Below, piece by piece: positions 20,778-57,689 of a DNA stretch of 64,000 bases (its first letter is position 1; the number at the start of each line of letters is the position of its first letter). The stretch is taken from contig NZ_CP084061.1 of assembly GCF_020215665.1 (NCBI RefSeq), forward strand, positions 558,001 through 622,000. Reading direction: 5' to 3'. The DNA is from Blautia parvula. GTDB lineage: Bacteria; Bacillota; Clostridia; Lachnospirales; Lachnospiraceae. The translations under genes were made by a program, and so were the position numbers. A model generated the notes under the pieces. It was not told the origin of the DNA, made no database searches, and was given only the letters and a program-made list of their open reading frames with translations.

Positions 20778-20876
20778 AGTAGAGTAGGTATTACGCGTTA
20801 AGTGTCATGGGATGGGAAGTTGTCCATGAACGAAGGCAGCCAAAGGCTCCACGATGTAATATTGCGTCCGCTACTA
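20778..20876 (+). promoter_or_regulatory. Tetrahydrofolate (THF/folT) riboswitch aptamer
   Basis: The sequence carries the folT-motif core: GAGTAGGTATTACGCGTTAAGT, GGGATGGGAAGTTG, ACGAAGGC and TGCGTCCGCTACTAC, in the right order. P1 pairs GTAG near 20780-20787 with CTACTAC at 20871-20877. P2 pairs GTATTAC with GTAATAT. P3 pairs CATGG with CCATG. It precedes a folate ECF transporter gene, its classic target. A TATAGT box near 20775 could be a weak promoter, but transcription from the acs operon would also pass through it. Confidence 0.92.
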
Positions 20877-46889: not shown

Positions 46890-46893
46890 AAAG

Positions 46894-47025
46894 GTAACAG
46901 TTCAGATAAGCTGAACTGTTACGCATCCAGCCATGAAAAATCGCTTCGCGATGGGCTGGATGCCTGCAGGCGCTACCTGTTCATACGGTCAGTGCAGTAA
47001 ATGCGCAGACCTGTCTGAACTGTTA
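46894..47025 (+). repeat. Hairpin-rich element between cbiP and cbiC
   Basis: The element begins with a perfect 12-bp hairpin (46894-46905 with 46911-46922, arm GTAACAGTTCAG). A second hairpin follows (GCATCCAGCC 46923-46932 with 46954-46963, enclosing ATCGC/GCGAT). It ends with TCTGAACTGTTA (47014-47025), which is complementary to the first arm. The left arm can thus pair with either of two partners. The ends resemble those of the 22304-22476 element (GGT-AC--TTCA), so both may belong to one family. Confidence 0.65.
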
Positions 47026-47044
47026 TATAGAAAGGGCAGATGAG

Positions 47045-47795: not shown

Positions 47796-49340
47796 ATGAA
47801 GTGTGAAAGATGCGGCCATGAGCTGGACAACGATGATTTATTCTGCTCAAAGTGCGGAAAAGCGGTGTTCGAGGAATACATGGATGAGGACGACATCTGG
47901 GAGTTTTATAAAAGCGACGAAGAGCTGAAGGCCATGAAGATGGAGGCTGCCGCAGCAGCGGATAAGGATACAGAGGATTCCGCTCACAGCGTTGCAGCAG
48001 CCGCGGCAGCAGGGTATGAAAAGACTGATAAAGTCTATGTTTCCGAGAATCAGAGGGAGGGGAATGGTTCCGGGAATGTGGATGCGAAAGCGGCAGATGC
48101 GGTAAAAGCAGATTATGATGCAGGTGCTAAAGCGGCAGACGTGGTACAAGCAGACTATGATGCAGATTCTAAAGCGGCAGACGTGGTACAAGCAGACTAT
48201 GATGCAGATTCTAAAGCGGCAGATACGCCAAAAGCTGATTATGATGCAGATGTTAAAGCAGCGGATGCTGTAATAGCAGACCATAATATAGATGGCAGCG
48301 CAGCAGATTCCGAAAATACGGATCATGAGGAGACAGATTACAAAGCAGCGGACCCCGTAAGCACAGAGGATTCTGACGCAGAATACAGTGATGCAGATAT
48401 TATGGATTCAGACTCTGCAGACACAGAGGAACTTCCTTTTGAAAATCTGGTCAGTCAGGCACAGAAATCTGCTGCGAACAAGCCAAAAAAAGAAAAACAT
48501 CGGGGAGAGCCTGAGAATAAGAGTCCCATCTGGCTCATATCCGGTTGCATTTTGATCGTATGTCTTCTGATCGGCATTCTGTGGGGTGTGCGCACCATGC
48601 AGCAGATGGATGAGGAGAAGAAGGCATACTATGCCAAGATAGAGCCGGAAGACAAAACGTCCGGTGCGCAGGCGCAGAATACAGAGAATAAGCAGGATGC
48701 AGCCAACAAGGACACAGACAGCGGCGAAGAGGCAGATAAAGATGCCGGCAAGAAGGACAGCGGTGCTGCAGATGCTGACAAGAAAGATAAGGACAAAGAG
48801 CCGGAGAAGGAAGAAAAGCCTAAGGAAGAAAAAAAGGAAGAGAAGAAAGAGGAAAAGAAACAGGAATATTTTAAACAGGTGGATGCAGACAGCATTGACT
48901 TTTCAAAATTCCAGAAGGTTTCCATTGCATCCGCTGACCAGAATTCCCAGCAGTCCTCCGAAAAATATGATTACAGTGCAGCCAGCGCTGTGGATGGTGA
49001 CACTGCTTCCTCCTGGCAGGAGGGAGAAGACGGACTGGGCGAAGGCACCGGCATCCGGCTGGATTTTGACAAAGCCCGCAAAGTGCGGTACATGGTGCTT
49101 TACCTGGGCAACTGGAGAAGTGAAAACATGTGGGAGGCAAATGCCAGACCTGCGTCCCTGACCATCAGCGTGGGCGATTCCCAGAAAAAGGATGTGGAGT
49201 TCTCTGATGAGATGAAAGCGTTCTGCCTGTCCTTTGATGAACCCGTGGAAGCTTCCTATGTATCCCTTTATATCAAAAGCGGATATGAAGGAGACAGATG
49301 GAATGACAACTGTATCTCCGAAGTTGAGATATATGAATAA
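47796..49340 (+). CDS. Zinc-ribbon, repeat-rich single-pass membrane protein with C-terminal discoidin/NADase-type domain
   Basis: A 514-aa protein of unknown function. Residues 1-27 form a zinc ribbon (CERCGHEL...FCSKCGK). A strongly acidic low-complexity region follows, with five ~14-residue repeats (KAADVVQADYDADS type, residues ~98-167). A basic stretch leads to one membrane segment (WLISGCILIVCLLIGILWGV, ~residue 247). A KEE/KDKE-rich stalk follows, then a C-terminal ~150-residue F5/8 (discoidin)-like domain (ASAVDGDTASSWQEG, GIRLDFDKARKVRYMVLYLGNW, CISEVEIYE), resembling the NADase-type glycan-binding domain. The N-terminus is probably cytosolic and the C-terminal domain outside. It lies last before the operon terminator; no link with corrinoids is evident. 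Confidence 0.85.
   Translation: MKCERCGHELDNDDLFCSKCGKAVFEEYMDEDDIWEFYKSDEELKAMKMEAAAAADKDTEDSAHSVAAAAAAGYEKTDKVYVSENQREGNGSGNVDAKAADAVKADYDAGAKAADVVQADYDADSKAADVVQADYDADSKAADTPKADYDADVKAADAVIADHNIDGSAADSENTDHEETDYKAADPVSTEDSDAEYSDADIMDSDSADTEELPFENLVSQAQKSAANKPKKEKHRGEPENKSPIWLISGCILIVCLLIGILWGVRTMQQMDEEKKAYYAKIEPEDKTSGAQAQNTENKQDAANKDTDSGEEADKDAGKKDSGAADADKKDKDKEPEKEEKPKEEKKEEKKEEKKQEYFKQVDADSIDFSKFQKVSIASADQNSQQSSEKYDYSAASAVDGDTASSWQEGEDGLGEGTGIRLDFDKARKVRYMVLYLGNWRSENMWEANARPASLTISVGDSQKKDVEFSDEMKAFCLSFDEPVEASYVSLYIKSGYEGDRWNDNCISEVEIYE
48087..48296 (+). repeat. In-frame 42-bp tandem repeats in the zinc-ribbon protein gene
   Basis: Five consecutive 42-nt units starting at 48087, 48129, 48171, 48213 and 48255. 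Units 2 and 3 are identical at the nucleotide level; the others differ at several positions. The repeats encode 14-residue acidic units and keep the frame, so copy number can change without breaking the protein. Confidence 0.9.
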
Positions 49341-49434: not shown

Positions 49435-51099
49435 TTATCTGTCAATCGCACGGATGTGGTCAATAAAGAGACTGCGTATGCCTTCATATTCACCGAGACC
49501 TTTTAACACGGTCTTCACTTCATATCCCTCGTCTTTAAACTGGCTGTACCAGGATTCCGGGTCATCTCCTGCCATATCATTTTTCGCGTGGTCCCCTGCC
49601 ACGATCATAAAGGGAGCCAGAACTACTTCCTTTGGCCGGTAAGCCTTCACCATTTTTTTCAGGCTTTCCATGGAAGGATAGGCTTCCACGGTCCCAAGGA
49701 AGAAATTGTGGTAGCCTTTATCCTTGAACGTGTAATCAAGAGCCGCATAGATGGAGTTGGCAAAATGTGTGGTGCCGTGTCCCATGAATACCAGTGCCTG
49801 ATCCTTTGTAATATGGGAAAATTCCCGGGCGATGGCAGCGATCACTTTATGGCTGTCATCCTCTGTGGTGAGCAGCGGATCTCCGAAAGAAATGGAGTGG
49901 AAGGAATCCCGGAAGGAGAGGGCGTCCTCCTTCATTCGGTCATTTTCAATGCCGTTGATCACATGGGTGGGCTGTACCAGCACATCCGTGATGCCGTCGG
50001 CTGCCATCTGCTCCATGGCCTCCTTTACTGTGGGGACAATAATGTTGTCACGGTTTTTCAGCTTCCGTATGATCATTTTGCTGGTCCATGCCCGGTAGAC
50101 AGGGTATTCGGGAAATGCCTGTCTCATGGAATCTTCAATGGCGTCAATGGTGACCTTTCTGGTGTCCTCATGGCTGGTGCCGAAGCTGACTGCCAGGATT
50201 GCTTTCTTTGTCTCTGTGTTCACTGGTGATATTCCTCCGTAATGTGTAGTATTCATATTGACATCTGCGATGTATTTTTCCAGAGTCTTCAGATTTTTGG
50301 GGACAGGCAGTGTGGGCTTTAAAATACCCTTCATACACAGACTGTCAAACAGCTCCAGAACAGCAGGCGGTTCCAGGTTCGTCCGGGCGAGGACTGCCTT
50401 GTTGCTGAATACATCAGCGGGGGTGCCGTGCATGAGAACCTTTCCCTCATGAAAAAGCATGATCTCATCTGCCCACTCATAGGCATAATTCACATCATGG
50501 GTTGCCATGAGGACGGTGATCCCGGCCTCTGTCAGACGATTGACGATGTGGTTGACCATGGTGGTGTGTTTGGGGTCCAGAGCCGCTGCCGGTTCATCTA
50601 AAATGATAATATCCGGATGCATAACAAGGATGTCTGCAATCGAGACCTGTTTTTTCTGCCCTCCGCTTAGGGAGTGGGTAGGCTTGTGGCGGAAAGGTGT
50701 GATCTCCAGATGATCAATAACCTCCTCCACCTCTTTTTTTGCATCCTCCTCGGACACACCCAGATTCAGGATGCCAAAGGAGATTTCCTGGTATACACTG
50801 GCTGAGAAGAGCTGGTTGTCAGGGTCCTGGAATACGATTCCTACCTTGCTGCGCAGTTTTAAGAGTCCCTTCTTGTCATAGGTGACCGGTTCTCCGTCAA
50901 AGTACAGGGTACCGGAGGAGGGACGGTGAATGCCGTTGCAGCATAAAAAGAAAGTGGATTTTCCGGAACCGTTGGAACCCATAAACGCAACTTTTTGTCC
51001 GCGTTTGATTTCCAGACTGAGACCGTTTAACGAATGGGAATTTTCATCGTCATAAGAAAAATATAAATTCTCTGCTTTCAGTATAATGTCATTGTTCAT
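49435..51099 (-). CDS. cbiO-cbiK: CbiO-CbiK fusion: cobalt ECF transport ATPase joined to sirohydrochlorin cobaltochelatase
   Basis: A 554-aa protein in one frame. Residues 1-~235 are an ECF-type ABC ATPase: Walker A GSNGSGKST (41-49), Q-loop VFQDPDNQLF, signature SLSGGQKKQ, Walker B IIILDEPAAALDP and switch ATHD. A linker of ~60 residues follows. Residues ~297-554 are a class II chelatase CbiK: ILAVSFGTSHEDTR, VQPTHVINGIEND (catalytic His), VFMGHGTTHFAN (metal His) and VLAPFMIVAGDHAKNDMAG. One half powers cobalt import by CbiMNQ, the other inserts cobalt into sirohydrochlorin. No internal stop or RBS was noticed at the junction. It overlaps cbiQ by 4 nt. Confidence 0.93.
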   Translation of the reverse strand: MNNDIILKAENLYFSYDDENSHSLNGLSLEIKRGQKVAFMGSNGSGKSTFFLCCNGIHRPSSGTLYFDGEPVTYDKKGLLKLRSKVGIVFQDPDNQLFSASVYQEISFGILNLGVSEEDAKKEVEEVIDHLEITPFRHKPTHSLSGGQKKQVSIADILVMHPDIIILDEPAAALDPKHTTMVNHIVNRLTEAGITVLMATHDVNYAYEWADEIMLFHEGKVLMHGTPADVFSNKAVLARTNLEPPAVLELFDSLCMKGILKPTLPVPKNLKTLEKYIADVNMNTTHYGGISPVNTETKKAILAVSFGTSHEDTRKVTIDAIEDSMRQAFPEYPVYRAWTSKMIIRKLKNRDNIIVPTVKEAMEQMAADGITDVLVQPTHVINGIENDRMKEDALSFRDSFHSISFGDPLLTTEDDSHKVIAAIAREFSHITKDQALVFMGHGTTHFANSIYAALDYTFKDKGYHNFFLGTVEAYPSMESLKKMVKAYRPKEVVLAPFMIVAGDHAKNDMAGDDPESWYSQFKDEGYEVKTVLKGLGEYEGIRSLFIDHIRAIDR

Positions 51100-51872
51100 G
51101 TGAAGAACCTCCTCCAGATCATGATGGAAAATAAAAAGATTTCAAATAAAACAATCCACACAATCACTTTTTTCTTAGGAGGATAGGTTTCATTCAAAAC
51201 ATGGATGGTGCCGTCATAGCAGCGTGCTTCCATGGCACTGTAGAGGGCATTGGAGCGCTTTACTGCCCGAATCATCAAAACAGAGCCAAGGGAGCCGAAG
51301 GACTTTAAGCTTGTCCTGTAATCCCTGTTTCCAAGGCGGCTGTTCTGTGATGTGGAAATATAATACGCAGTGTCCAGCAGCACGAAGATGAACCGGTAGA
51401 TGAGCAGCATAAGCTCGATCATCAGTTTGGGACAGTGGAGCTTTCCCAGTACATTTAAGATGTCCGGCATAGGTGTTGTCATGGACAGAAAATACAGGCA
51501 GGAGACTGCGGAAAGTGCCGTCAGGATCAACTGCAGAGCGTAGAGCAGGGCATCCAGACTTCCTGTGAGATATAAGCTCCCGATTGGGATGGCAAACAGG
51601 TCCAGCGGTTCGTGCTTTACATTCAGAACAATGGCAATGGTGCTCAGAATCAGGAAAGCCAGCGGCACAGTCATAAAGTGCAGATAGCGGGAAAAAGGGA
51701 TTCCCCCCTTATAAACGGTGAGAATCCCTGTGACTGCTAAAACAATGCATGCGACCACGATGGAACGACTCATTACACAAAAAAGAAGTGTAATCATCGC
51801 AAACGCAAACTTTTCACCGGCATTTTCATATCTAAGCTTGGAAGTATAGCAAAGCTTATCAATGGTTATCAT
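51096..51872 (-). CDS. cbiQ: Cobalt ECF transporter T component
   Basis: A 258-aa membrane protein with about five hydrophobic segments and the CbiQ features LCYTSKLRYENAGEKFAFAMITLLFCV, SMTTPMPDILNVLGKLHCPKLMIELMLLIYRFIFVLLD and the Ala-Arg coupling region SLGSVLMIRAVKRSNALYSAMEARCY, which contacts CbiO. It lies between cbiN and cbiO-cbiK and overlaps the latter by ATGA. Confidence 0.93.
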   Translation of the reverse strand: MITIDKLCYTSKLRYENAGEKFAFAMITLLFCVMSRSIVVACIVLAVTGILTVYKGGIPFSRYLHFMTVPLAFLILSTIAIVLNVKHEPLDLFAIPIGSLYLTGSLDALLYALQLILTALSAVSCLYFLSMTTPMPDILNVLGKLHCPKLMIELMLLIYRFIFVLLDTAYYISTSQNSRLGNRDYRTSLKSFGSLGSVLMIRAVKRSNALYSAMEARCYDGTIHVLNETYPPKKKVIVWIVLFEIFLFSIMIWRRFFT

Positions 51873-51901: not shown

Positions 51902-52201
51902 TCATTCGCCTTTTCCCAGCTTCTTTCTTTCTACAAAACGTCCCATAAAGAAGGCCAGAATGCCCACTCCGATGGAAGACTGTACGCAGAACAGAAGACT
52001 TTCCACTTCGCCCGGAAGCTCGCGGCCAAGCATTTTTTCAAGGAGCGGTTCCGCGATGGGCTGGAAGCCGGAATCCACTTCCTCAACTACCTGGCTGCCG
52101 GCATCATCAGAGCCGCCGAATTCAGCATCTTTTAATGCAAAAAGCGGAACAAACGCAATTAAGAGAATCACAACTAATAATCCGATCACTGTTTTTTTCA
52201 T
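51902..52201 (-). CDS. cbiN: Cobalt transporter subunit CbiN
   Basis: A 99-aa protein with two membrane segments: an N-terminal one (VIGLLVVILLIAFVPLFAL) and a C-terminal one (SIGVGILAFFMGRF), joined by an extracytoplasmic loop with EFGGSDDAG and PLLEKMLGRELPGEVESLLF. This is the CbiN layout; it assists CbiM in loading cobalt. One nucleotide separates it from the cbiM stop. Confidence 0.92.
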   Translation of the reverse strand: MKKTVIGLLVVILLIAFVPLFALKDAEFGGSDDAGSQVVEEVDSGFQPIAEPLLEKMLGRELPGEVESLLFCVQSSIGVGILAFFMGRFVERKKLGKGE

Positions 52202-52202
52202 A

Positions 52203-52949
52203 TTACTTTGCCTCCTTTAAAAAACCGATGGTACGAAGTTCCGGTTTCGCATAGGTTTCAAGACCCATGATAATAAGAACTGTGATGATGCCTTCGATAA
52301 TTGCCAGAGGTAACTGTGTAGGTGCGAACACCAGCAGGAATTTTCCCATGGCGCCCATGATTGTGGTATCTGCATGATGAGCCAGGGCCATCTGAACAGC
52401 AGTAACGCAGTATGTAAATAAATCACCCAGAGTTGCTGCAAGGAAAATGGAAATATGCTTGTTTACCCTGCATTTTTTACATACGAAGAAAATTCCGTAG
52501 GATACAAAAGGTCCTGCAATCGCCATGGAAAAAGTATTGGCGCCCAGTGTGGTGAGTCCGCCGTGTGCCAGCAGGATTGCCTGGAAGAGCAGCACGATAA
52601 TACCCAGAATAGAAACTGCGCTGGGACCGAAAAGGATGGCACCCAGTCCGGTTCCTGTCATATGGGAACAGCTTCCTGTCACTGACGGGATCTTCAGAGA
52701 TGAGATAACGAACACGAACGCTCCTGACATTGCCAGCAGGGTGATCAGATTTCTGTGTTCATTCAGGGTTTTCTTGATGGACATGAATCCTGCGATCAGG
52801 AATGGTACGCAGATGACACCCCATGCGATGCAGAACCCTCCGGGAAGATAACCTTCCATGATGTGCATGGCGCTGACGTTGGGCACGATACCAAAGGTCA
52901 GTGCGAACATGCTTGCCAGTACAATGATTTTTTTCTGTTTCTTACTCAT
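52203..52949 (-). CDS. cbiM: Cobalt ECF transporter S component
   Basis: A 248-aa integral membrane protein with an N-terminal signal peptide (KKIIVLASMFALTFGIVPNVSA) followed by MHIMEGYLPGGFCIAW. Cleavage after VSA would expose Met-His at the mature N-terminus, where CbiM/NikM bind the metal through the terminal amine and His2. Other motifs are SSLKIPSVTGSCSHMTGTGLGAILFG and LLAHGGLTTLGANTFSMA. First gene of a cobalt-import operon under a cobalamin riboswitch; RBS AGAAGGAGGAAAAG. Confidence 0.95.
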   Translation of the reverse strand: MSKKQKKIIVLASMFALTFGIVPNVSAMHIMEGYLPGGFCIAWGVICVPFLIAGFMSIKKTLNEHRNLITLLAMSGAFVFVISSLKIPSVTGSCSHMTGTGLGAILFGPSAVSILGIIVLLFQAILLAHGGLTTLGANTFSMAIAGPFVSYGIFFVCKKCRVNKHISIFLAATLGDLFTYCVTAVQMALAHHADTTIMGAMGKFLLVFAPTQLPLAIIEGIITVLIIMGLETYAKPELRTIGFLKEAK

Positions 52950-53052: not shown

Positions 53053-53157
53053 CATCAGAAGAACAAACGCGGGGCAGGTGACTTTATACAAAGAATAAAT
53101 GCCGTATCCGCCTGTTCTTACACAAGGCCATCGTTCGTAACCATTGTGTAAATCGTT

Positions 53158-53326
53158 TGTGACAGGCAGGTCTTCTGACTCGGGCCTCATCGCTGCATTT
53201 TGCCTTCCCAGTTTCCCAGTGACATTATAAAATGCAGCTCTTCCCTCACAGCGGCGTGACCGTGTGAGCTTTTAACTCAACTTTCCTATTCTTCCGCAAA
53301 AGCGGACACCTGTGCACACTCAATTC
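53158..53326 (-). promoter_or_regulatory. Cobalamin riboswitch (cbiMNQ-OK operon)
   Basis: The - strand carries a classic AdoCbl aptamer: GCACAGGTGTCC near 53310, GGAAAGTTGAGTTAAAAGC, CACGCCGCTGTGAGGGAAGAG, and the closing GAGTCAGAAGACCTGCCTGTC (53161-53181). It starts at the transcription start predicted from the promoter at 53334-53362. It differs in sequence from the cbiD riboswitch, so it is not a recent copy. Confidence 0.93.
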
Positions 53327-53333
53327 TGTGATT

Positions 53334-53362
53334 ATTGTATCTCCCCGGAAGTTTTTTGTCAA
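53334..53362 (-). promoter_or_regulatory. Promoter of the cobalt-import operon
   Basis: On the - strand TTGACA (53357-53362), a 17-nt spacer and TACAAT (53334-53339), placing the start near 53327 at the 5' end of the riboswitch. Confidence 0.8.
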
Positions 53363-54791: not shown

Positions 54792-55257
54792 GAAAAAACT
54801 GTTTCCCCTGTATACAGACCTGACACAGAAAAAAGCCGTGGTCATCGGCGGAGGAAAGATCGCTGCCAGAAGGATCACAAGCCTTCTGGGATTTGTGGGG
54901 GAGCTGGTGGTGATCGCTCCTCTTGTACAGCCGGAGATCCGGGAGCTTGCAGAGAAGGGGGAGCTTATCTGGAAACAGAAAGAATACCGGCGGGAAGATC
55001 TGTATGACGCGGATTTGGCTCTGGCAGCCACAGATGACAGCAGAGTAAATGATGATATTTACAGTGCCTGCAAGTGTCTGGGCATACTGGTGAATACAGC
55101 CAGTGACCAGAACAAGTGTGATTTTCATTTCCCGGGACTTATCTGCCATGATGGCGTGGTCATTGGATTTAACGCGGCGGGAAAAGATCATAAAAAGACA
55201 AGACAGATGCGGGAAAAAGTGGAAGAATTTTTGAAAACGCCGGGAGGTAGAGCATGA
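54781..55257 (+). CDS. Precorrin-2 dehydrogenase (SirC/CysG N-domain-like)
   Basis: A 158-aa NAD-dependent dehydrogenase that oxidises precorrin-2 to sirohydrochlorin. KLFPLYTDLTQKKAVVIGGGKIAARRITSLL carries the GGGxxA Rossmann motif; LALAATDDSRVNDDI and LVNTASDQNKCDFHFPGL are family features. It lacks the ferrochelatase and methylase domains of full CysG. Chelation is then provided by CbiK at 49435. It overlaps hemA and, by 4 nt, the following fusion gene. Confidence 0.9.
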   Translation: MKTEKKLFPLYTDLTQKKAVVIGGGKIAARRITSLLGFVGELVVIAPLVQPEIRELAEKGELIWKQKEYRREDLYDADLALAATDDSRVNDDIYSACKCLGILVNTASDQNKCDFHFPGLICHDGVVIGFNAAGKDHKKTRQMREKVEEFLKTPGGRA

Positions 55258-57689
55258 ACAGCAGGACAGTGGTAATCGGCAGCCGGGAGAGCCGGCTTGC
55301 TGTGATACAGAGCGAAATGGTGAAGGACTACATAGAGAAGAACAATGAGGGACTGAAGGCGGAGCTTCTCACCATGAAGACAACAGGGGATATCATTCTG
55401 GACCGAACCCTTGACAAAGTGGGGGGAAAGGGACTGTTTGTAAAAGAACTGGACCGGGCGCTTTTGGACGGAAGAAGTGAACTTTCCGTGCACAGCCTGA
55501 AGGATATGCCCATGGAGGTTCCGGATGAACTGCCTCTTCTGGCCTTTTCAAAAAGAGAGGACCCCAGAGATGTACTGGTGCTCCCGGAGGGAGTGACCGA
55601 GCTTGACAGGACAAAGCCCATCGGCTGTTCCAGTCTCAGGCGTACCCTGCAGCTTCGGGAATTATTCCCGGATATGGAGTGCAGGAGTGTCAGAGGAAAT
55701 GTGCAGACGCGGCTTCGGAAACTGGACAGCGGGGAATACAGCGCGCTGGTGCTGGCAGCGGCGGGCCTTAAAAGGCTGGGGCTTACCCACAGGATTTCCA
55801 GATATTTTGAGCCGGAGGAGATGCTTCCGGCAGCAGGACAGGGCATTTTGACCGTGCAGGGCAGAAAAGGGAAGGATTACTCTTATCTGGACGGATACGG
55901 GGACGCGGACAGTACCTGTGCGGCTTTGGCAGAGCGCTCTTTTGTAAGGTTTTTGGACGGCGGATGTTCCTCGCCGGTGGCTGCCCACGCGGTGGTGGTC
56001 CGGGATGAAATCCTGCTTACCGGACTCTATTACGAGGAAGAGACAGGCGCTTATAAAAAGGGCAGTCTGAAAGGGAAAAGAGAGGAAGCAGAGGAGCTGG
56101 GCGTGCGTCTTGCACAGAAACTGAGAGAGGAGTGCAGAAGAGAGAATATGACAGCCAGTGAACAGGAAACAGACAATAGATACTGCAAAGGAAAGGTCTG
56201 GCTTGTGGGCGCCGGCCCGGGCGACATCGGACTTTTTACCCTGAAGGGCATGGAGACCTTGAAAAACGCACAGGTGGTAGTATATGACAGCCTGGTGGGG
56301 CAGGGGGTATTATCCCGGATTCCGGCCGGCGTGCGCCTGATCAACGTGGGAAAACGTGCCTCCCACCATATTATGCCCCAGGAACAGATCAACCAGGTTC
56401 TTGTGGATGAGGCAAAAAAAGGTTACCGGGTGGTGCGTCTAAAGGGCGGGGACCCGTTCCTCTTCGGAAGAGGCGGGGAGGAGCTGGAGCTTCTTACAAA
56501 AGAGGGAATCCCCTACGAAGTGGTGCCCGGAGTGACCTCACCTTTGGCAGTCCCTGCGTACAACGGGATTCCCGTGACACACAGGAATTACTGTTCCTCC
56601 CTGCACATTATCACAGGCCACAAAAAGCAGGGGGAGGCCTATGACATAGATTTTGACGCGCTTGTGCGCACGAAGGGCACTCTGGTATTTCTTATGGGCG
56701 TCACCGCGCTTCCGGATATCTGTAACTCTCTGCTGCAGGCGGGTATGCAAAAAGAGATGCCGGCTGCCATTTTACAGAAGGGAACCACAGCGGGGCAGAA
56801 GCGGATCGTGGCCACAGTTGCCACACTTGAGGAGGAAGTAAAGCGCCGGGGAATCGAGACACCGGCGATCATTGTAGTGGGTGAGGTGTGTTCCCTTGCG
56901 GATACCTTCGGATGGTATGAAAAGCTGCCTCTTGCAGGGTATAAAGTGCTGGTCACAAGACCCAGGGAAACCATTTCCACCATGTCACAAAAACTGCGTC
57001 TGATGGGTGCTGAGGTGCTGGAGCTTCCGGCTATCCGCACAGCTCCCCTTGCAGACCAGAGCGCGCTTCATAACGCATTCGGACAGCTTCACACCTATGA
57101 CTGGCTGGCATTTACAAGTCCTATCGGTGTAAACGTGTTCTTTGAGGAGATGAAAAAAGCCGGGACAGATGTCCGCAGACTAGGCCGCGCGAAGATTGCC
57201 GCCATCGGAAAGGGCACGAAAAAGGCACTGGAGGAGAGAGGTCTGTTCGTGGATCTCATGCCTGAAGTGTTTGACGGGGAATCTCTGGGGAAAGCTCTGT
57301 GCAGTGTTTGCAGCGGGAATGAGAAGATCCTTCTTCCGAGAGCCAAGATCGGCGGAAAAGAGATCATCCAGGAGCTGGAGAAAAAGCCGGGACTTTTCAT
57401 CTGTGATGTGCCCACTTATGACACTTTCTATGAAAAACAGGAAGTGATCGATGAGAAAAAAGCTTTTGAGAGCGGAGAGATCAACTGCGCGGTTTTCACA
57501 AGCGCATCCACGGTAAGAGGATTTGCGGAGGCGGTAAAAGGGCTTGACTTTACAAAAGTAACGGCTGCCTGCATTGGAAAACAGACGAAAGCCGCGGCGG
57601 ATGCCCTGGGTATGAAGACATTTATGGCGAAACAGGCCACCATTGACAGTGTGGTGGATTTGGTTGTAGACTTAAAAAATAGCAGATAA
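55254..57689 (+). CDS. hemC-cobA-hemD: HemC-CobA-HemD trifunctional fusion
   Basis: An 811-aa protein with three enzymes. Residues ~1-300 are porphobilinogen deaminase (GSRESRLAVIQSEMV, GGKGLFVKELDRALLDGRSELSVHSLKDMP, dipyrromethane Cys in FLDGGCSSPVAAHA near 239). Residues ~310-560 are uroporphyrinogen-III C-methyltransferase (VWLVGAGPGDIGLFTLKGMETL, RLKGGDPFLFGRGGEELE, PGVTSPLAVPAYNGIPVTHR). Residues ~565-811 are uroporphyrinogen-III synthase (VLVTRPRETISTMSQKL, FTSPIGVNVFFEEM, FTSASTVRGFAEAV). Together they turn porphobilinogen into precorrin-2. CobA-HemD fusions are common in Clostridia; HemC in the same chain is less usual. Confidence 0.93.
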   Translation: MNSRTVVIGSRESRLAVIQSEMVKDYIEKNNEGLKAELLTMKTTGDIILDRTLDKVGGKGLFVKELDRALLDGRSELSVHSLKDMPMEVPDELPLLAFSKREDPRDVLVLPEGVTELDRTKPIGCSSLRRTLQLRELFPDMECRSVRGNVQTRLRKLDSGEYSALVLAAAGLKRLGLTHRISRYFEPEEMLPAAGQGILTVQGRKGKDYSYLDGYGDADSTCAALAERSFVRFLDGGCSSPVAAHAVVVRDEILLTGLYYEEETGAYKKGSLKGKREEAEELGVRLAQKLREECRRENMTASEQETDNRYCKGKVWLVGAGPGDIGLFTLKGMETLKNAQVVVYDSLVGQGVLSRIPAGVRLINVGKRASHHIMPQEQINQVLVDEAKKGYRVVRLKGGDPFLFGRGGEELELLTKEGIPYEVVPGVTSPLAVPAYNGIPVTHRNYCSSLHIITGHKKQGEAYDIDFDALVRTKGTLVFLMGVTALPDICNSLLQAGMQKEMPAAILQKGTTAGQKRIVATVATLEEEVKRRGIETPAIIVVGEVCSLADTFGWYEKLPLAGYKVLVTRPRETISTMSQKLRLMGAEVLELPAIRTAPLADQSALHNAFGQLHTYDWLAFTSPIGVNVFFEEMKKAGTDVRRLGRAKIAAIGKGTKKALEERGLFVDLMPEVFDGESLGKALCSVCSGNEKILLPRAKIGGKEIIQELEKKPGLFICDVPTYDTFYEKQEVIDEKKAFESGEINCAVFTSASTVRGFAEAVKGLDFTKVTAACIGKQTKAAADALGMKTFMAKQATIDSVVDLVVDLKNSR

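Follow-up and report, generated by a model that had tools for sequence, protein, structure and literature searches.

The closest described counterparts of the locus analysed here are separate proteins. Cobalt transporters of the CbiMNQO ECF type are represented by the structures 5x3x/5x41, which we take to be CbiMQO of Rhodobacter capsulatus, and by 3gfo, CbiO1 of C. perfringens; their CbiO chains are individual ATPases of 275 to 292 residues. CbiK of Salmonella (1qgo/2xwp) is a stand-alone protein of 264 residues, and excerpts of PMC7689651 assign catalytic roles to its His145 and His207. The same excerpts describe class II chelatases as intrinsically poor at telling metals apart, which leaves the choice to metal availability, and give CbiMQO a stoichiometry of 1:1:2. 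In the consulted portion of PMC10206600, Salmonella CbiK is reported to take its cobalt out of the buffered cytosol along a favourable gradient and with no chaperone, and the cobalt occupancy of the enzyme with sirohydrochlorin is estimated at 12% in standard LB. In-frame nested products of internal initiation have also been reported, e.g., Haloferax Cas11b from cas8b (PMC11899642, in excerpt).

In the window, i.e., the complete 64,000-nucleotide stretch of the Blautia parvula genome under analysis, an ATPase and a chelatase of these families share one open reading frame. Both families are known; their fusion, a conserved nested start within it and a series of fused relatives with decayed ATPase halves were not met in the open-access literature searched, and the portions consulted, including those of PMC7689651, PMC2667541, PMC6461909 and PMC6593275, do not describe a CbiO-CbiK fusion. 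Overall, the locus is probably the product of a stop-codon loss between two neighbouring genes in which the internal restart was kept, so that a tethered and a free chelatase would be made from one riboswitch-controlled message.

Operon context and domain architecture

The features of the locus, in the order of transcription and all on the reverse strand, are as follows.

53334..53362 (-): promoter-like site TTGACA-17-TACAAT directly 5' of the riboswitch (near-consensus match only)
53148..53328 (-): cobalamin riboswitch, 96.7 bits (gathering score 31.5), located 198 bases 5' of cbiM
52203..52949 (-): cbiM, substrate-specific component, 260.9 bits, over the cut-off of 184.15
51902..52201 (-): cbiN, in the expected place; 60.8 of 104.85 bits, both matching models being under their curated cut-offs
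51096..51872 (-): cbiQ, transmembrane T component, 158.4 bits, over the cut-off of 111.8
49435..51099 (-): fused CbiO-CbiK ORF, 554 aa from ATG start to stop (ORF, Pfam, PDB relatives, fold)
50251..51099 (-): CbiO half, residues 1-283, ECF-type cobalt transporter ATPase (Pfam, models, PDB relatives, motifs)
50224..50259 (-): linker, residues 281-292, holding a translated putative ribosome-binding site; low-confidence coil (sequence, AlphaFold model)
50234..50238 (-): putative internal Shine-Dalgarno (SD) sequence GGAGG, codons 288-289, Gly-Gly (sequence, conservation)
50221..50223 (-): putative internal start codon GTG at residue 293, spaced 10 bases from GGAGG (29/30 related ORFs have NTG)
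49435..50223 (-): predicted free CbiK of 262 aa if translation begins at the internal start; identical in residues to the CbiK half

Behind the riboswitch, cbiM, cbiN, cbiQ and the fusion follow each other on one strand, with a 4-base overlap between cbiQ and the fused ORF, which bears out the preliminary description in placing the fusion under a cobalamin riboswitch. GGAGG is found 10, 9 and 8 bases ahead of cbiM, cbiN and cbiO, respectively, and AAAGGAG ahead of cbiQ.

The preliminary description had also claimed a 554-codon frame with two complete halves, and this was confirmed by Pfam domains far over their cut-offs, i.e., ABC_tran at residues 24-171 (110 bits versus 25) and CbiK at residues 299-551 (290.3 bits versus a gathering score of 26.2). 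The fused ORF moreover passes the cbiO subfamily model TIGR01166 (233.4 bits versus a curated cut-off of 211.8). Equivalog cut-offs were missed by the CbiO half (ECF_ATPase_1, 239.2 of 315; PRK13636, 279.8 of 463) and by the CbiK half (NCBIfam SiroCoChCbiK, NF047852, 257.9 of 400 bits), and the exact equivalog name of the latter therefore rests on Pfam, the histidines and the operon. Solved sequence relatives of the CbiO half are C. perfringens CbiO1 (3gfo, 1.4e-73) and CbiO of the CbiMQO complex (5x3x, 1.3e-61), whereas Salmonella CbiK (1qgo) was matched with 1.1e-51 by the whole query and, over its full length, with 2.4e-52 by the CbiK half. The likeness to the CbiMNQO transporters thus comprises the sequence and fold of the CbiO half together with cbiM, cbiN and cbiQ ahead of it in the operon, but its C terminus runs into a chelatase. 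The likeness to Salmonella CbiK comprises the full-length match, both catalytic histidines and the fold, but here the enzyme forms the C-terminal half of a chain that begins with a transporter ATPase, and it is very probably made as a nested product too.

The catalytic motifs, described earlier as intact, are so without exception in an alignment of 41 of 60 fused proteins (that of the window and 40 chosen relatives, three proteins with a decayed ATPase having been left out). Invariant are residues of the Walker A motif (G41, N43, G44, G46, K47, S48 and T49), the Q-loop (Q91), the LSGGQ signature (144-148), Walker B (D168/E169) and the H-loop (H201). The same applies to the chelatase residues His441 and His504, which align with His145 and His207 of Salmonella CbiK and were both found in 60/60 fused ORFs. 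Judged by family and histidines, the CbiK half is predicted to be a class II cobaltochelatase that would insert cobalt into sirohydrochlorin.

A Foldseek search of the PDB with the AlphaFold model of the fused protein returned CbiO chains on top and 1qgo in ninth place, with other transporter ATPases between and after them; the CbiK fold was matched with a TMt of 0.94. The model (mean pLDDT 85.9, pTM 0.51) consists of two confident domains and a low-confidence coil linker between them (residues 281-290, mean pLDDT 49), which suggests a flexible tether, and no channel is visible in it.

Several further features of the window were recorded. A THF riboswitch is located at 20778-20875 (+) (72.1 bits). 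A 514-aa protein at 47796-49340 (+), adjoining cbiC and out of keeping with the surrounding B12 genes, has a C-terminal domain that matches Pfam NADase_transloc and, by eye, a zinc-ribbon-like start, a low-complexity repeat of the KAADVVQADYDADS type and one transmembrane stretch. Between cbiP and cbiC, the region 46890-47040 appears repeat-like by eye, with the inverted sequences AACAGTTCAG...CTGAACTGTT.

Conservation and distribution of the fusion

Conservation of the domain pair in other genomes had been proposed as a check of the fusion, and the pair is indeed widespread in the genus. A dedicated search showed the junction in one open frame in 20/20 genus genomes, and a search with the whole ORF found matches in all 20, of which 19 are almost full length and one (G014) is in two pieces, its ORF being cut by a contig end. 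In the family sample (397 genomes, 334 genera), 226 genomes gave some match to the junction query, and among the matches listed the whole junction is in one intact frame in at least 16 genomes of 14 genera. Three of these 16, the window's own genome among them, belong to its genus; a seventeenth match at the junction (G439) is a broken Dorea frame. In the phylum sample (398 genomes, the window's own included), the whole junction was matched only in the window's gene and in G518 (L159), the latter with a stop between cbiO and cbiK, and a fusion outside the family was thus not found in these 398 genomes.

Among the best 80 loci from a scan of named genomes, the fusion is found, for instance, in Blautia species, Lactonifactor, Murimonas, Robinsoniella, Hominisplanchenecus, Lachnoclostridium and Ca. 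Scatomonas. From 158 loci, 126 with an adjacent cbiO-cbiK pair were retained and reduced to 75 by the removal of duplicates; 60 of these are fused and 15 separate, a ratio that is no frequency because the loci were picked by their likeness to the fusion and the sampling favours it. The 60 fused rows include one with an apparent frameshift (L137), one cut by a contig end (L087) and the three with a decayed ATPase. Separate cbiO and cbiK genes are also present among the fused relatives (L121, L111, L075), which indicates that stop codons come or go. On the tree of all 75 rows, the fused and separate states require six changes, at least two of them forced by the starred branches, and five changes remain with ten rows removed (the truncated L087 and nine that are broken or on long branches). 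The AU test on this reduced tree against a single fused clade gave a p value of 0.0486, which we treat as borderline, and the status of one single origin of the fusion is likewise borderline; gain and loss are indistinguishable on the tree.

An isolated observation concerns Dorea sp. D27 (L137), whose cbiO and cbiK are fused and which falls outside the Blautia branch; its junction carries GGAGGGCAGATGATG. Its apparent frameshift at Walker A is the reason why we do not rely on it as an independent fusion.

A frame error, which resequencing would reveal and which no other genome would share, had been named as the finding that would speak against the fusion. The Dorea frameshift lends such a reading its single precedent among the fused relatives, but the open junction in all 20 genus genomes and in many independent assemblies, single-contig ones included, rules out a sequencing or assembly error or a pseudogene for the window's gene, and we regard its probability as practically nil. 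Since there is no stop codon between the halves, the fusion follows if cbiO is translated, and a single CbiO-CbiK chain is in all likelihood produced.

The junction and its putative internal start

The coding strand at the junction of the window reads TAC GGA GGA ATA TCA CCA GTG. At the same place, the separate-gene relatives L111 and L121 have a stop codon, AGGAGG and ATG, and their stand-alone CbiK starts exactly at the codon that corresponds to the GTG of the window. The separate CbiO of L121 stops at a position equivalent to about residue 282 in the protein of the window, and the linker would therefore approximate the old intergenic gap.

Codon usage at the junction was analysed in 30 fused ORFs that form one branch including the window (SH-aLRT 95). 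At residue 288, GGA is used in 28/28 rows with glycine, and the other two rows have GAA GGG, which is still SD-like; by comparison, three or four glycine codons are used in each of the 21 invariant ungapped glycine columns. Counted on a tree built without the junction, the residue-288 column has no third-base changes, as the sole column of 549 after the exclusion of those with Met or Trp in at least 28 rows, versus a median of 10 changes in the 112 conserved fourfold columns. The internal start column contains GTG 14 times, TTG 8 times, ATG 7 times and ATT once, i.e., NTG in 29/30 ORFs, with nine changes at bases 1 and 2 and one at base 3 on the same tree. Among the 33 columns that vary among V, L, M and I, the start column included, no other shows this pattern, and a single third base is found only in two near-invariant Met columns. 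Leucine is encoded by TTG in 8/8 Leu rows of the start column versus 6.1% elsewhere in these ORFs, and valine by GTG in 14/14 Val rows versus 27.5%.

Beyond codon choice, an in-frame GGAGG-N5..11-NTG is present at the junction column in 42/60 fused ORFs, the next best column having 13. The mean pairing with the anti-SD is strongest at the junction among 548 columns, and the local RNA structure is near its weakest there (residue 293 on rank 3 and residue 295 on rank 1 of 535). With a wider definition (GGAGG, AGGAG, AAGGA or GAAGGG, followed by a start after 4 to 13 bases), a restart is found in 47/60 fused ORFs, comprising 29/30 of the Blautia group and 18/30 outside of it. Judged from this conserved in-frame combination of SD and start codon, the junction signal is selected beyond coding constraint, and a free CbiK of 262 residues is very probably produced from it as well. 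A single gene would thus give rise to both a fusion of about 62 kDa and the free chelatase.

These results modify several statements of the preliminary description. The frame described as uninterrupted has no stop, but it contains a strong SD (50234..50238) and a GTG start (50221..50223) as translation signals. The single protein of about 62 kDa expected there is in all likelihood made, but in view of the conserved internal restart it would not be the only product. Internal restart yielding two separate proteins had been named as evidence against a fusion; such a restart is strongly indicated by conservation, but it would add a free CbiK and not remove the fused one.

A reading in which only the fusion is made, and in which the internal SD and start represent a remnant or a translational pause at the domain boundary, could appeal to elongating ribosomes, which might mask the site when crossing it, and to the existence of lineages without the site. 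However, a pause or remnant leaves unexplained the NTG with its first-base swaps among V, M and L and the fixed distance, as well as the zero third-base drift at the SD glycine amid much-changed neighbours, and we consider this reading very improbable. An independent cbiK promoter was rejected as well. The match at 50348-50321 (-), about 100 bases before the internal start, is probably due to chance, because nine promoter-like sites were found in the region versus 5.5 expected and because its TTGACA falls on a codon for Asp or Glu among the relatives.

The proposed nested free CbiK resembles Cas11b/cas8b (PMC11899642, in excerpt) in that a single frame would specify a long protein and a C-terminal product of internal initiation. 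It differs in that the long form unites two once-separate enzymes and in that the internal site resembles an old intergenic ribosome-binding site.

A second fusion of consecutive tetrapyrrole-pathway enzymes is encoded in the same window, i.e., an 811-aa HemC-CobA-HemD triple fusion at 55254-57689 (+) that combines a porphobilinogen deaminase, a tetrapyrrole methylase and HemD in one frame. Judged by its position, the methylase is presumably of the CobA type. Unlike CbiO-CbiK, the triple fusion lacks a GGAGG-type start in frame at its junctions. It contains weaker SD-like sites in frame at residues 150, 284 and 666; that at residue 284 (AGGAG-6-GTG) lies within the C-terminal domain of HemC and precedes the CobA domain by 30 residues.

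Proposed tethered and free chelatase

The restart is absent in 13/60 fused ORFs, and its presence and absence need at least six changes on the tree. Velocimicrobium (L114), one of the 13, has kept a weaker GGGAG and an ATG and may be a borderline case. Seven of the 13 genomes have one CbiK match, four a close separate second CbiK (G447, G851, G366, G844) and two a divergent second one only. A close second CbiK is found in 0/18 counted restart-bearing genomes (Fisher p 0.023 versus 4/13; the comparison is post hoc, the genomes are not independent, and the split between close and divergent CbiK was drawn after the data had been seen). The sole Blautia-group row with a lost start codon (L099, ATT) belongs to a genome with a separate second CbiK (G447). 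A second CbiK as the cause of the restart loss was nevertheless rejected as a general explanation and accounts for it only partly, since 7/13 restart-less genomes lack a second copy. A divergent second CbiK is present in two of the 18 counted genomes with a restart (G293, G376) and in two without (G845, G848). The CbiK-family matches in question (G293:C28, G376:C12, G845:C43, G848:C25) have E values of about 1e-70 to 1e-72 and lie in frames of 430-535 aa.

CbiX as the real chelatase of the restart-less genomes was discarded, because every CbiX match there lies inside a counted CbiK ORF; no CbiX outside these ORFs was found in the 13 genomes, several of which are draft bins so that the absence is not firm, and none was found in the window's genome. 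Since the fusion is the sole CbiK/CbiX match in 7/13 restart-less genomes, the fused CbiK probably works and suffices alone in some lineages. The lack of the start site in 13/60 fused ORFs is accordingly indicative of lineages in which a free CbiK is dispensable, and in others it seems to be wanted.

A decayed ATPase half is seen in three fused ORFs, two from Ca. Fusicatenibacter (L130, L133) and one from Ca. Pseudolachnospira (L126). Walker A is present, the Q-loop segment is unrecognisable, and the catalytic Glu of LDEP is replaced by Leu or Gly; the ABC signature is LSDGQ in L130 and L133 and is missing in L126, which also lacks the H-loop His. All three are without a restart and have both chelatase histidines intact. 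Among 28 genomes searched for CbiM, it was not found in just these three, the completeness of which is not stated, and cbiMNQ are not beside the fused ORF at the two loci looked at (L130, L126). A second CbiK match is also present in G844 and G845, two of the three genomes. The importer thus seems to be gone here while CbiK is still joined to the decayed ATPase, which argues that retention of the chelatase does not depend on a tether to a functional importer. On the sequence level, the decay series shows a chelatase apparently kept as a fused chain.

The fusion might also be a tolerated by-product, in which a stop codon was lost by chance, CbiO carries a passenger domain, free CbiK does the chelation and the tether has no function. 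The restart site in 29/30 Blautia-group ORFs, the separate genes among fused relatives and the two histidines kept in the CbiK half of all three decayed-ATPase ORFs would fit such a history, but an intact frame recurs in 14 genera of the family sample, and the restart is absent in 13/60 ORFs. In the seven genomes of these that have no other CbiK or CbiX match, the fused CbiK must work if cobamides are made and the assemblies are complete. This reading is therefore a serious but rather doubtful alternative to a fusion that supplies both forms of the enzyme.

For the latter, the following sequence of events is proposed. Neighbouring cbiO and cbiK genes would have been joined by the loss of the cbiO stop codon, and the former intergenic ribosome-binding site would have become a short linker. 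Translation from the cbiO start would yield the fusion, and, the old cbiK start having presumably been kept in frame by selection, ribosomes would initiate there too and release free CbiK. CbiO is expected to be paired under CbiM/CbiQ as is normal, so that flexible tethers would hold chelatase domains on the cytoplasmic side of the importer; given the 1:1:2 stoichiometry of CbiMQO (PMC7689651, in excerpt), one importer could carry two of them. Tethering may raise the local cobalt for a chelatase that is itself a poor metal discriminator and may thereby give CbiK a benefit. The limited metal specificity of class II chelatases and the occupancy estimate of 12% would favour such a benefit, whereas the unaided cobalt acquisition of Salmonella CbiK speaks against the tether being necessary. 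A single riboswitch-controlled message would then provide the importer, the tethered chelatase and the free chelatase.

The preliminary description went further and proposed direct channelling, in which cobalt passes from CbiMNQO straight to the tethered CbiK outside the free pool. Such a transfer would be in line with two halves that act in sequence on one metal, with the little metal specificity that excerpts of PMC7689651 ascribe to class II chelatases and with the estimated cobalt occupancy of only 12% for Salmonella CbiK-sirohydrochlorin (PMC10206600, in excerpt). Against it stand the low-confidence linker of the AlphaFold model, the domain interface of which was judged by the pTM of 0.51, the cytosolic cobalt that Salmonella CbiK draws without delivery (PMC10206600, same portion) and the free CbiK, which would bypass a channel. 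We therefore regard channelling as unlikely.

Returning to the combination of tethered and free chelatase, its distribution in the family provides a natural test set that comprises separate genes, fusion with restart, fusion alone and a decayed ATPase that is still fused. Gene finders are expected to call one gene at such loci and to miss the probable free CbiK. Stop losses with a retained ribosome-binding site could exist at other operon junctions as well and are searchable by the same signature. Whether a metal, once imported, is passed straight on to the enzyme that requires it is a long-standing question in metal biology. As a speculative extension that we would not bet on, the fusion could turn the importer into a metal-loading station, where a chelatase tethered at the exit takes cobalt before iron or nickel, the restart sets the ratio of tethered to free enzyme, and one B12 riboswitch switches both. 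If true, this would represent a metal hand-over between transporter and enzyme within one gene and with a tunable dual output.
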